Assembly (NCBI RefSeq): GCF_900207575.1
Contig: NZ_OAOQ01000002.1
Span: forward strand, 114,587 to 178,586
Direction: 5' to 3'
Source: Cereibacter ovatus
GTDB taxonomy: Bacteria > Pseudomonadota > Alphaproteobacteria > Rhodobacterales > Rhodobacteraceae
Length of the DNA: 64,000 nt
Below, piece after piece: positions 4,867-45,298 of the stretch. The stretch's first letter is position 1; every line of letters begins with the position of its first letter. Below the pieces are notes generated by a model. The model did no database searches. It was given only the letters and a program-made list of their open reading frames with translations, and was not told the DNA's origin. Both the position numbers and the translations under genes were made by a program.

Positions 4867-4982
4867 GGCTGGGTCCGACGGATAGTCGGGCCCAGCCGAA
4901 CCTGTCTCGGAAGAGGCTTCGCTGCGAAGCCCCTTCCAAGGCGCGGTTCGAGGTTCGGGAGCCCGCCGGTGGGACGGCGGGC
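4867..4982 (+). promoter_or_regulatory. Three hairpins in the rplL-rpoB spacer
   Basis: Three GC-rich stem-loops follow one another. The first has a 13-bp arm starting GGCTGGGTCC (4867-4879 with 4885-4897). The second is GGCTTCG/CGAAGCC with outer GGAAG/CTTCC pairing (about 4910-4938). The third is GCCCGCCG/CGGCGGGC (4961-4968 with 4975-4982). None has a T tract. In E. coli this spacer holds an attenuator and an RNase III processing site, so a role in setting the RNAP to ribosomal-protein ratio is plausible. Confidence 0.55.
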
Positions 4983-5073
4983 GTGAATGGGACCTCACCC
5001 CCTGCTTCGCAAGCGGCGCATGCCCGTGGCCCGACGGTCCGTGCGCCCGCGAAAACGAAAGGTGACTTCGAGC

Positions 5074-21249: not shown

Positions 21250-21318
21250 TCATCTGGGGATCTTCGGAGCCCTGTACCGGACCCAACGTGGTCCTTTAGC
21301 TGACGGAAGACAGGAAGC

Positions 21319-41003: not shown

Positions 41004-42266
41004 ATGGCCAACGTCCCGGACGCGCCGAAAGAGTCCTTTCGGCTCAGTATGTTGCTATACGATACGCGGTATCGTTCGCTGACCATTCAGGTCTTCGTCT
41101 TCATGCTGTTCATGGCCGGCGCCGCCTGGCTGGTGGACAACACGATCCGCAACCTTGCGGCTCTCGGCAAGGATTTCAACTTCGGCTTCCTGTGGAACCG
41201 GGCGGGGTATGACATCAGCCAGCGGCTGGTCGAATACACCAACGACAGCAGCCATGGCCGGGCCATGCTGGTGGGGCTGCTGAACACGCTTCTGGTGGCG
41301 TTTCTCGGGTGTCTAGCCGCCACGGTGATCGGGGTTCTGGTCGGCGTCTTGCGGTTGTCGAAGAACTGGCTGGTCGGGCGGCTGATGACCGCCTATGTCG
41401 AACTGTTCCGCAACATTCCGCTGCTGCTGTGGATCATCCTGATCTACGCCGTCTTTACCGAGGCGACGCCGGCGCCCAACGCCTTCCGCCCCAACCCCGA
41501 AACCGGGATCGCCAGCCAGTCGATGTTTCTGGACGCGATCGCGGTAACCAACCGCTATACCGCGGTGCCCAACCCGGTCTTCAGCCGCGAGTTGGGCTGG
41601 CTGAATCTGGGCCTGTTTTACGTCAACCTTGACGTGATCGCGGTGATTGCGGCGGCCGTGCTGGGCTGGTGGCTGAACCGGATGGTGAAGGCCCGCGCCA
41701 CCCGCATCCAGAACGCCACCGGCATCCGGCCGGCCACATGGTGGTCGTCGCTGCTGCTGTTGGTGGGGCTGCCGGTGGCGGTGCTGCTGGGCCTTGGGTT
41801 CCATCTGGAATATCCCGGGCTGAAAGGCTTCAACTTCGTCGGCGGCATCAACGTTTCAAACTCGTTCATGGCCTTGTGGCTGGCGCTGTCGCTGTATACC
41901 GGCGCCTTCATTGCCGAAATCGTGCGTGCCGGGATCATGGCGATCTCGCGCGGGCAGTCCGAAGCGGCCTTTGCGCTGGGCCTGCGCCCGGGGCGGACCA
42001 TGAGCCTTGTGATCTTGCCGCAGGCGCTTCGGGTCATCATCCCGCCGCTGATCTCGCAGTATCTGAACCTGACCAAGAACTCGTCGCTGGCCATCGCCGT
42101 GGGTTATCTTGACCTGCGCGGCACGCTGGGCGGCATCACGCTGAACCAGACCGGACGAGAGCTGGAATGTGTGCTGCTGATGATGCTGATCTATCTGACG
42201 ATCAGCCTGCTGATCTCGGGGGCGATGAACGTCTACAACGCCTCGGTCAAGCTGAAGGAGCGGTGA
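41004..42266 (+). CDS. aapQ: General amino-acid ABC transporter permease
   Basis: A 420-residue inner-membrane permease of the HisMQ family, larger than single-domain members, as is typical for AapQ. Several transmembrane segments are visible, and the ATPase-docking EAA loop (GQSEAAFALGLRPGRTMSLVILPQALRVIIPPL) lies near residue 315. It is followed by aapM after 1 bp, so the two are coupled. Confidence 0.93.
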   Translation: MANVPDAPKESFRLSMLLYDTRYRSLTIQVFVFMLFMAGAAWLVDNTIRNLAALGKDFNFGFLWNRAGYDISQRLVEYTNDSSHGRAMLVGLLNTLLVAFLGCLAATVIGVLVGVLRLSKNWLVGRLMTAYVELFRNIPLLLWIILIYAVFTEATPAPNAFRPNPETGIASQSMFLDAIAVTNRYTAVPNPVFSRELGWLNLGLFYVNLDVIAVIAAAVLGWWLNRMVKARATRIQNATGIRPATWWSSLLLLVGLPVAVLLGLGFHLEYPGLKGFNFVGGINVSNSFMALWLALSLYTGAFIAEIVRAGIMAISRGQSEAAFALGLRPGRTMSLVILPQALRVIIPPLISQYLNLTKNSSLAIAVGYLDLRGTLGGITLNQTGRELECVLLMMLIYLTISLLISGAMNVYNASVKLKER

Positions 42267-42267
42267 G

Positions 42268-43602
42268 ATGAGCGACACCCCCGCCCAGACCGTGCCCTTC
42301 GTGCGCGACACGATGCTGCCGCCCGCGCCGCCCCCGGCAAGTCAGGCCGGCGCCCTGCGCTGGCTGCGCGAGAACCTGCTCTCGGGGCCGCTGAACATTG
42401 CGCTGACGCTGCTGGGGATCGGGGCGGTCTGGTATCTGTTGCAGGGAATCGTGCCGTGGCTGGCCCATTCGGTCTGGTCTGCCGACAACCTGACCCAGTG
42501 CCGCCAGATCATCACCGACCGCTGGGGCGAGGGCGCCACCGGCGCCTGCTGGGCCGTGATCCGCGAACGCTGGACGCAGTTCCTGTTCGGTTTCTATCCG
42601 CAGCACCTTTACTGGCGGCCGACGCTGGCCTTTGCGCTGCTGTTCGTGGCGCTGGCGCCGGTGCTGTTCGCCCGCGTGCCGAAAAAACTGTTGTGGTTCA
42701 GCGTGGCCTATCCCTTCGTGGCGTTCTGGCTGCTGTGGGGCGGGTCGCTGTTCCTGCCGCTGACGGTGGCGGCGGGCTTCGGGCTGGGCTGGGCTGCCTT
42801 TGCGCTGCTGCACCGCTTTGGCACCATTCCGGCGGTCGCTGCGGCGGTTCTGCTGCCGGTGTTGTGGTGGCTGCTCTTTGCGGGCGATCTGTCGCGCGAT
42901 CTGACGGGCCTTGTCGGCCGCGAGGTGCCGTTCTGGCTGGAGCAGGTCCGGTCCGACAAGTTTGGCGGCTTCGTGCTGGCCATCACCATCGGCGTTGCCG
43001 GGATCGCGCTGTCGCTGCCGCTTGGGATCATGCTGGCCTTGGGCCGGCAGTCGGACATGTTCCTGATCAAGACGCTGGCGGTCTCGTTCATCGAGTTCAT
43101 CCGCGGCGTGCCGCTGATCACGCTGCTGTTCACGGCCTCGCTCTTGCTGAACTACTTTCTGCCGCCGGGGACGACCTTCGACATCATCCTGCGCGTCATC
43201 ATCATGGTGACGCTGTTCGCCGCGGCCTATATCGCCGAGGTGATCCGCGGCGGTCTGGCAGCCCTTCCCCGCGGCCAGTACGAGGCCGCCGACGCGCTGG
43301 GGCTGGACTACTGGAAGGCGCAGCGCCTGATCATCCTGCCACAGGCGCTGAAGATCTCGATCCCCGGCATCGTCTCGACCTTCATCGGCATGTTCAAGGA
43401 CACGACGCTGGTGGTGTTCGTGGGGCTTCTTGACCCGCTGAAGGGCATCACCGACGCCGTGCGCGCCTCGACCGACTGGAAGGGGATCTACTGGGAGCCT
43501 TACATCTTCGTCGGCGCCATCTTCTTCATCTTCAACTTCGCCATGTCGCGCTATTCGATGCATCTCGAACGCCGGCTGAAGACCGACCACCGCCAGGAGT
43601 AG
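42268..43602 (+). CDS. aapM: General amino-acid ABC transporter permease
   Basis: The 444-residue partner permease. A Pro/Ala-rich cytoplasmic N terminus precedes several hydrophobic helices, and the EAA loop (GQYEAADALGLDYWKAQRLIILPQALKISIPGI) lies near residue 340. It follows aapQ with a 1-bp gap and precedes the ATPase gene by 3 bp, a tight operon. Confidence 0.93.
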   Translation: MSDTPAQTVPFVRDTMLPPAPPPASQAGALRWLRENLLSGPLNIALTLLGIGAVWYLLQGIVPWLAHSVWSADNLTQCRQIITDRWGEGATGACWAVIRERWTQFLFGFYPQHLYWRPTLAFALLFVALAPVLFARVPKKLLWFSVAYPFVAFWLLWGGSLFLPLTVAAGFGLGWAAFALLHRFGTIPAVAAAVLLPVLWWLLFAGDLSRDLTGLVGREVPFWLEQVRSDKFGGFVLAITIGVAGIALSLPLGIMLALGRQSDMFLIKTLAVSFIEFIRGVPLITLLFTASLLLNYFLPPGTTFDIILRVIIMVTLFAAAYIAEVIRGGLAALPRGQYEAADALGLDYWKAQRLIILPQALKISIPGIVSTFIGMFKDTTLVVFVGLLDPLKGITDAVRASTDWKGIYWEPYIFVGAIFFIFNFAMSRYSMHLERRLKTDHRQE

Positions 43603-43605
43603 CCC

Positions 43606-44394
43606 ATGTCCGAAGTCATCGACCGCAGGATCGACCGCAGCCATATGCAGGTCAGCGATGAGGTCGCGATCCAGATCAGCCGGATGAACAAGTGGTATGG
43701 CAGCTTTCACGTCCTGCGCGACATCGACATGACCGTCCACAAGGGCGAGCGGATCGTGATCTGCGGCCCGTCGGGGTCCGGCAAGTCCACGCTGATCCGC
43801 TGTATCAACCGGCTGGAGGAACACCAGTCCGGCAAGATCGTGGTGGACGGGATCGAACTGACATCCGACCTGAAGAACATCAACAAGGTCCGGTCCGAAG
43901 TCGGGATGGTGTTCCAGCACTTCAACCTGTTCCCGCATCTGACGATTCTGGAAAACTGCACGCTGGCGCCGATCTGGGTCCGCAAGACGCCGAAGCGCGA
44001 GGCCGACGAAGTGGCGATGCACTTCCTGAAAAAGGTGAAGATCCCGGAACAGGCGCATAAATACCCCGGCCAGTTGTCAGGCGGCCAGCAGCAGCGGGTG
44101 GCCATCGCGCGGTCGCTGTGCATGAAGCCGCGGATCATGCTGTTTGACGAACCCACCTCGGCGCTTGATCCCGAGATGATCAAAGAGGTTCTCGACACCA
44201 TGATCGAACTGGCCGAAGAAGGCATGACCATGCTGTGCGTCACGCATGAGATGGGCTTTGCGCAGGCGGTAGCGAACCGGGTGATCTTCATGGATCAGGG
44301 CCAGATCGTCGAACAGAACGAACCGGCCGAGTTCTTCCGCAACCCGCGCAGCGATCGGACCAAGCTGTTCCTGAGTCAAATCCTCGGTCACTGA
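43606..44394 (+). CDS. aapP: General amino-acid ABC transporter ATPase
   Basis: The 262-residue ATP-binding subunit. Walker [10 protein letters not shown] (54-62), signature LSGGQQQR, Walker [14 protein letters not shown] and the switch histidine in CVTHEMGF are all present. An N-terminal extension of about 20 residues precedes the first strand, as in other AapP proteins. It is the last gene of the transporter operon. Confidence 0.96.
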
Positions 44395-44603: not shown

Positions 44604-44972
44604 ATGGCAAACATCACCTTTTCGTCGCCGATCATGCACGAGCAGAAGACGGTCTATGCCGTCGCCGGCGACACCAAGACGATCCTCGCGCTTGCCGAGG
44701 AACACCGGATCCCGATCCCCTTCGATTGCAAGGACGGCAACTGCGCCTCTTGCCTGATCGAGGTGACCTATGCAGAGCCTTCGGTGAAGAAGGGTATCCA
44801 CCTGACCGAGAAGGAAAAGGCGAAACTGCGGGAACTGGGCAAGATCACCGCCGCCGAAATCGAGGATGCCGAGGTGCGCGACATGCCACCGCGCTATCGT
44901 CTGGCCTGCCAGTTCATCGCCCGCGACGAGGATGTGACGGTCAGCTTCACTGGCGAACCCGGCGGCGCCTGA
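44604..44972 (+). CDS. [2Fe-2S] ferredoxin (plant type)
   Basis: A 122-residue electron carrier. The cluster ligands C42, C47 and C50 (FDCKDGNCASC) and C102 (YRLACQF) follow the plant-type CX5CX2C...C pattern. An unusually long charged insertion (about residues 62-92) lies between the ligand loop and the last cysteine. The redox partner is unknown; no oxidoreductase gene adjoins it. It is separated from aapP by 209 bp and from the creatinase by a structured spacer. Confidence 0.9.
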   Translation: MANITFSSPIMHEQKTVYAVAGDTKTILALAEEHRIPIPFDCKDGNCASCLIEVTYAEPSVKKGIHLTEKEKAKLRELGKITAAEIEDAEVRDMPPRYRLACQFIARDEDVTVSFTGEPGGA

Positions 44973-44988
44973 TCCGTGCCGAAGGCGC

Positions 44989-45018
44989 TTGACAGGACGC
45001 AGGCGCCTGCGGGATGAA
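44989..45018 (+). promoter_or_regulatory. Candidate promoter upstream of the stem-loop array
   Basis: A perfect TTGACA (44989-44994), then GATGAA (45013-45018) at 18 bp. The -10 is poor. If active it would start a leader of about 275 nt that carries the whole hairpin series into the creatinase gene. Confidence 0.35.
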
Positions 45019-45027
45019 AGATCAACT

Positions 45028-45232
45028 CTTGCGTCCCACAAGGGCAAGGCGTCGTCTTCCATTCCCTGACGGGAAAAAGACATGCCTTGCACGCCCGTAG
45101 GGGCAAACCTTCGTCTTGCGCCCCCGCCGGGGCGCGGGCAGCCCTTCGGGGCAGGAGCAGCGCACACGCGGCGATGGCGTCGCCGCGAGGAAGGGGCAGC
45201 CCTTCCGGTGCTTGCGGGGGGGGCATACCCCC
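45028..45232 (+). repeat. Serial stem-loop array between ferredoxin and creatinase genes
   Basis: Units beginning CTTGC or CTTCC recur at 45028, 45056, 45086 and 45115, with a further CTTCG at 45144, giving spacings of 28, 30, 29 and 29 bp. The first four each fold into a hairpin with a short C arm, a 4-nt loop and a G arm: loops ACAA, TGAC, GTAG and CGCC. More stems follow: GCCC-TTCG-GGGC (45141-45152), GGCGA/TCGCC (45170-45184), GGAAGGG-GCAG-CCCTTCC (45189-45206) and GGGGG/CCCCC (to 45232). The 326-bp spacer has no convincing gene. Confidence 0.6.
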
Positions 45233-45298
45233 GTATCCGTCCTGTACGCCGGGACTCTTTCAGGGTCCGGCATCGGGCCCTTTGTGATGAGGTCCGAA

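Follow-up and report, generated by a model that had tools for sequence, protein, structure and literature searches.

A conserved two-hairpin RNA in the creatinase leaders of Cereibacter ovatus and its relatives, a candidate riboswitch for creatine or guanidinoacetate

In Cereibacter ovatus, the creatinase gene almost certainly has a conserved cis-regulatory RNA in its 5' leader, located at 45161–45255 of the window (the whole 64,000-nt stretch of DNA analysed). It consists of two hairpins, P1 (GGCGA-UGGCG-UCGCC) and P2 (GUCC-UGNACGCCG-GGAC), separated by a variable linker. As the best explanation, to which we give an even chance, the RNA would be a metabolite riboswitch with a guanidino compound of the creatine pathway as its ligand. 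At marginally less than an even chance, it would be the first class of natural riboswitch to sense creatine or guanidinoacetate, its kissing-loop aptamer of two hairpins coordinating the breakdown of creatine, amidino transfer, and export across marine proteobacteria.

The creatinase of the window aligns over its full length with the Pseudomonas creatinase, and the motifs TDGAHNPV, ALERT, GHSFG, and SMEPM, which we take to contain the active-site residues, are all intact. The genes upstream (41004–44394, 44604–44972) encode polar amino-acid ABC transporter components and a 2Fe-2S ferredoxin-like protein, and similarity to the ferredoxin stretch beside creatinase was found in the same genus only. 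A promoter-like element begins 16 nt past the ferredoxin stop codon and reads CTTGACAG ... GGATGAAA/GAATGAAA in the same-genus genomes; its TTGACA had been noticed in the first-pass annotation just upstream of a train of small hairpins, and it is indeed kept in register (Table 1). Elsewhere, the window has two leaders known to Rfam: Rhodo-rpoB (RF03074) at 4952–5045 and the L2-Alphaproteobacteria ribosomal protein leader (RF03142) at 21256–21316.

Table 1. Positions of observed and predicted features of the creatinase leader and gene, in window coordinates
Feature	Position	Strand	Basis
Promoter-like element, TTGACA (44989–44994), 17 nt, GGATGA (45012–45017)	44989–45017	+	In register in four genomes of the genus
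Hairpin train, lineage-specific 5' part of the leader	45028–45150	+	Above chance; not conserved in same-genus genomes
P1 hairpin, CGCGGCGA-UGGCG-UCGCCGCG	45167–45187	+	In 30/30 first homologues; stem covaries
P1 loop GGCG, predicted kissing partner of the P2 loop (45247–45250)	45176–45179	+	Complementarity
P1b hairpin, GGAAGGG-GCAG-CCCUUCC, in the variable linker	45189–45206	+	Minimum-energy fold; length and sequence vary between genomes
Additional linker hairpin of the genus (G-run/C-run)	45214–45234	+	Minimum-energy fold; aligned in genus mates
P2 hairpin, GUCC-UGUACGCCG-GGAC, consensus CCUGNACGCC	45239–45255	+	Conserved, covarying
P2 loop CGCC, predicted kissing partner of 45176–45179	45247–45250	+	Complementarity
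H1, GGACUC-UUUCA-GGGUCC, alternative hairpin reusing the P2 3' strand	45252–45268	+	Putative expression platform
H2, AGGGUCC/GGGCCCU, excludes H1	45262–45281	+	Putative, from complementarity
H3, GGGCC/GGUCC, covers the Shine-Dalgarno end	45275–45295	+	Putative, from complementarity
Shine-Dalgarno-like GAGG, 6 nt ahead of the start codon	45289–45292	+	Sequence
Creatinase (creatine amidinohydrolase), 401 aa	45299–46504	+	PDB 1chm (E 6e-157); Pfam Creatinase_N and Peptidase_M24

The hairpin train, on which the first-pass annotation had centred, is real and exceeds chance. Its units start with CTTGC or CTTCC exactly where described, at 45028, 45056, 45086, and 45115 (spacings of 28, 30, and 29 nt). 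In the proposed comparison with shuffled sequence, the tract 45025–45150 folds better than its shuffles (−62.9 kcal/mol vs −47.9 ± 4.1; z −3.66; 0/200), and 45025–45160 holds four tetraloop stems with at least four Watson-Crick pairs, against 0.77 expected (P 0.01). The minimum-energy fold, however, does not consist of four separate small hairpins, as the first two units are joined there in a single long one. The train is out of register in 4/4 same-genus genomes compared, among which the stretch from promoter to P1 varies in length and sequence (35–89 nt in the piece compared), and a sequence search of its own genome returned no second copy; it is therefore a lineage-specific 5' part of the leader, an ornament. 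A dispersed DNA repeat family was rejected because the train has one match in its own genome, and the suggestion of a decaying repeat family fell on the same single match and on internal repeats that are two-copy only and 75% identical. CsrA sites require GGA; the loops named for a CsrA/RsmA decoy (ACAA, TGAC, GTAG, and CGCC) lack it and the train is not conserved, so that proposal was abandoned as well. The train's lack of conservation within the genus would fit a chance or decaying array without function, but as an account of the whole leader this has a negligible probability, since it covers just 45028–45150 and conservation of the adjacent segment extends over hundreds of genera. The homologous structured region that had been sought elsewhere was clearly found with the segment of about 45161–45298, and the later stems described up to the creatinase start (from the GCAG tetraloop at 45189–45206 onward) lie within this conserved part. 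The descriptions "structured leader" and "best candidate for something undescribed" thus hold for the segment just 3' of the train and not for the train itself: the leader was right and the segment wrong.

In a DNA search with the creatinase region (101 relatives), similarity extends far beyond the genus from about 45150–45167, upstream of the start codon. All 30 creatinase upstream regions examined, from 27 genera, contain GATGGCGTC followed by CCTGNACGCC. Among 55 divergent sequences, 93.8% of the cells pair, two-sided changes occur in 7/15 pairs, and the covariation score is 0.175, compared with 0.072 for shuffled alignments, while slid partners do not exceed 0.077. In 234 distinct copies, a set that omits copies with fewer than 3/4 of the variable P1 pairs, pairing reaches 99% at the first three of these pairs, and GC, CG, AU, UA, GU, and UG were all seen; in one copy (L201), the closing A-U of P1 is swapped for G-C and the loop is kept. 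Covariation in both P1 and P2 indicates that the structure is real, and a covarying structure in a sense-strand 5' leader is among the features by which a riboswitch is recognised. The GGCG in the loop of P1 and the CGCC in that of P2 are complementary in all of the first 30 homologues, which were chosen without a loop-fixing pattern, and in 55/55 aligned sequences, whose selection by a pattern fixing the loops and inner stem makes the invariance there partly a matter of construction. From this complementarity, the two loops are predicted to form a kissing pseudoknot, and since the kissing pairs never vary, they draw no support from covariation. A further outer stem, P0 (GGGC/GCCC), which would create a three-way junction, is visible in many copies, but it exceeds shuffles only weakly (13.5 vs 11.8) and is not claimed.

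The same observations bear on two readings at the DNA and peptide levels. P1 and P2 are palindromic in DNA too and highly conserved, as would be expected of an operator in which two inverted repeats are bound by a transcription factor. However, the stem bases change in compensating pairs and the asymmetric loops stay fixed, the P1–P2 span (39–87 nt in the larger set) is unconstrained, and the element always precedes its gene on the sense strand, downstream of the promoter-like element, which makes an operator very improbable. The conserved ATGGCGTC gives ATG GCG TC(N) in every copy of the set and could start a leader peptide of a ribosome-mediated attenuator, but the P1–P2 span modulo 3 is even over the three frames (76/80/78), a Shine-Dalgarno sequence precedes the P1 ATG in 7/234 copies and is missing in 227/234, and the length of the upstream ORF is not conserved. 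With neither reading frame nor ribosome-binding site conserved across the 234 copies, the attenuator was rejected as extremely improbable.

A covariance model detected the RNA in 242/394 genomes of the host family and also in other alphaproteobacterial families, and pattern matching placed it in two Granulosicoccus-type gammaproteobacterial metagenome bins (L220 and L226). In the class sample, model matches up to E 9e-6 precede creatinase, and those at E ≥3e-5 (L091–L096, L166–L180) were set aside as chance; L216 was rejected as a copy, and L219 was neither accepted nor rejected. A pattern scan of 84,980 genomes gave at least 121 matches in at least 118 stretches. Among the matches listed, 114/121 are well formed, and all 114 stand before a target gene, which is creatinase in 98, an EamA transporter in 11, an L-arginine:glycine amidinotransferase (AGAT) in three, and a NylB-like hydrolase in two; two of the 98 creatinase calls (L294 and L317) rest on the first residues at the locus end. 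The other seven, including those in Streptomyces (L260) and Nitrospira (L290), lack both an intact P1 stem and a target gene, are regarded as chance, and are about as many as had been estimated for chance beforehand. The carriers are hundreds of mostly marine bacteria, in which the target genes degrade, make, or probably export creatine-type compounds.

Further targets, AGAT and EamA, were traced from second matches within one genome. The AGAT target is a 373-aa enzyme identified by comparison with solved structures (PDB 1jdw, E 2e-84), and it keeps the catalytic Asp/His/Cys positions. Creatinase and AGAT are adjacent in several genomes, each with its own RNA copy (L126, L127, L164, and L231). 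The EamA-type transporter targets are members of one family that are 52–67% identical. EamA copies in four genera (L122–L125) have near-identical surrounding DNA, which suggests recent horizontal transfer of the RNA together with the transporter. In two loci (L278:664-730, L325:1977-2041), the RNA precedes the NylB-like enzyme, a secreted, 6-aminohexanoate-dimer-hydrolase-like serine hydrolase with a META domain, and an EamA transporter with its own RNA copy follows 2.6–2.7 kb downstream of the hydrolase copy; in L193 (minus strand), an SDR (short-chain) dehydrogenase stands between the RNA and the same hydrolase. The substrate of this hydrolase might identify the natural source of the ligand. 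The same RNA is thus found before several genes of one metabolic theme, another feature by which riboswitches are recognised. In the class sample, it is present at 6/6 creatinases at least 65% identical to that of the window and at 0/16 of those at most 60% identical. Alphaproteobacterial creatinases of the latter kind (L344–L359) have no copy of the RNA, and their regulation must differ.

Comparison with Rfam 15, which includes the guanidine I–IV, glycine, and SAM classes, gave no match at the place of the conserved RNA at the gathering threshold, and a permissive search (E up to 10) returned only unrelated families far below gathering; seven homologue loci likewise matched no Rfam 15 family. 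Guanidine-II riboswitches (mini-ykkC, RF01068) have two ACGR tetraloops and regulate guanidine-related genes, including those for exporters. The conserved RNA resembles them in its two hairpins with interacting loops but differs in the loops themselves (UGGCG and UGNACGCCG), in giving no Rfam match, and in its gene set of creatinase, AGAT, and EamA. The SAM/SAH riboswitch (RF01727), a small translational pseudoknot, is restricted to Rhodobacterales and lies in front of a metabolic gene (PMC2864571). Our RNA appears to be of the same type and is likewise placed ahead of a metabolic gene, but it has another sequence and other genes than metK, no Rfam match, and a wider taxonomic range. The glycine riboswitch (RF00504) senses an amino acid of the same metabolic area, sarcosine and glycine being downstream of creatine, but has no sequence or structure match to the conserved RNA. 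HRC-8-4 and uORFC-8-2, motifs at cco operons and cysS in Rhodobacterales (PMC8632094), are also structured elements of the same order from comparative genomics, but neither is tied to creatinase. The motif-discovery and review papers covered contained no relevant creatinase or amidinotransferase motif, and the phrase "creatine riboswitch" had no match in the literature searched. The RNA is apparently undescribed so far, although an earlier report is possible. It most likely constitutes a new riboswitch class for a guanidino compound of the creatine pathway, and it would work in the manner of small translational pseudoknot riboswitches.

In the proposed mechanism, the creatinase mRNA leader would comprise an aptamer-like RNA (P1 and P2 with the loop-loop pseudoknot) followed by an expression platform. 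Binding of the metabolite would lead to docking of P1 and P2 and hold the P2 stem, keeping its 3' strand GGGAC from the downstream hairpin or hairpins by which the Shine-Dalgarno sequence finally becomes occluded; the latter would stay free and creatinase would be translated, a translational ON switch. The extra 5' hairpins may also have a role in this scheme. In long leaders such as that of the window, an exclusion chain of P2 > H1 > H2 > H3 can be read by eye, and in the short leaders L015 and L016 the partner of the P2 3' strand is the Shine-Dalgarno region itself (GACCUUUC...AAGGAGGGUC); in both layouts, P2 formation would leave the ribosome site free. Folding moderately supports the exclusion-chain platform, the P2 3' strand being re-paired downstream with a probability of 0.82 vs 0.65 in shuffles. 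It lends modest support to the ON direction: when P2 is formed, the predicted openness of the Shine-Dalgarno sequence rises in 48 creatinase leaders and falls in 19, and among the AGAT leaders it rises in five and falls in none. This support disappears where P2 and the start codon are more than 60 nt apart (five more open, seven less open) and in the transporter set, which has no trend (one more open, two less open). If the preceding steps hold, the ON direction is likely. The AGAT-type copies have a near-invariant downstream hairpin of their own, GGGACTTTCAATCGGGAGATTGAAGGCCCC, followed by a hairpin that hides the Shine-Dalgarno sequence (L111, L113–L116, L119–L121, L187, L205, L231, L274, and L313), and L317 has a version of this platform before creatinase.

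The short, strongly conserved loops could also serve as a site for a regulatory protein or small RNA acting on a structured leader in place of a metabolite. The occurrence of the same RNA before several unrelated enzyme and transporter genes of one metabolic theme, the variable linker between two fixed and mutually complementary loops, and the competing downstream pairings argue against this, and we consider it quite unlikely. Given a conserved cis-regulatory RNA, a metabolite riboswitch that binds a small molecule is instead probable.

For such a metabolite riboswitch, the identity of the genes makes creatine or its precursor guanidinoacetate the reasonably likely ligand: creatinase acts on creatine, AGAT yields the guanidinoacetate from which creatine is made, and either would suit an exporter. 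In the relatives, the same RNA would then control AGAT, the EamA-type exporter, and the NylB-like hydrolase. No AGAT was matched in the genome of the window, where the ligand evidence thus comes from creatinase alone. Another ligand, such as guanidine, urea, sarcosine/glycine, arginine/ornithine, or a guanidino compound released by the NylB-like hydrolase, might be sensed instead. The EamA transporter and the hydrolase are not creatine-specific, and exporters are also controlled by guanidine riboswitches (PMC7736828); but creatinase is by far the commonest target among the matches listed, AGAT is a creatine-pathway enzyme, and no Rfam family matched, known guanidine classes included, so we hold this to be rather unlikely. 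Two points weigh on the creatine or guanidinoacetate reading. AGAT, transporter, and hydrolase are minority targets (16/114 among the matches listed). Furthermore, induction of AGAT by a creatine ON switch would be odd unless AGAT runs backwards or the switch senses what AGAT itself consumes or produces. This is the weakest point of the reading, and it draws attention to guanidinoacetate or to reverse AGAT action. The candidate ligands are cheap, commercial compounds, so that the proposal is directly testable.

Creatine is usually regarded as an animal compound. If the proposal is true, creatine or guanidinoacetate would be a signal as well as a nutrient for many marine bacteria. The RNA would also aid functional assignment both of an EamA transporter family and of AGAT in bacteria, and as a small natural aptamer it may be of use as a creatine biosensor.
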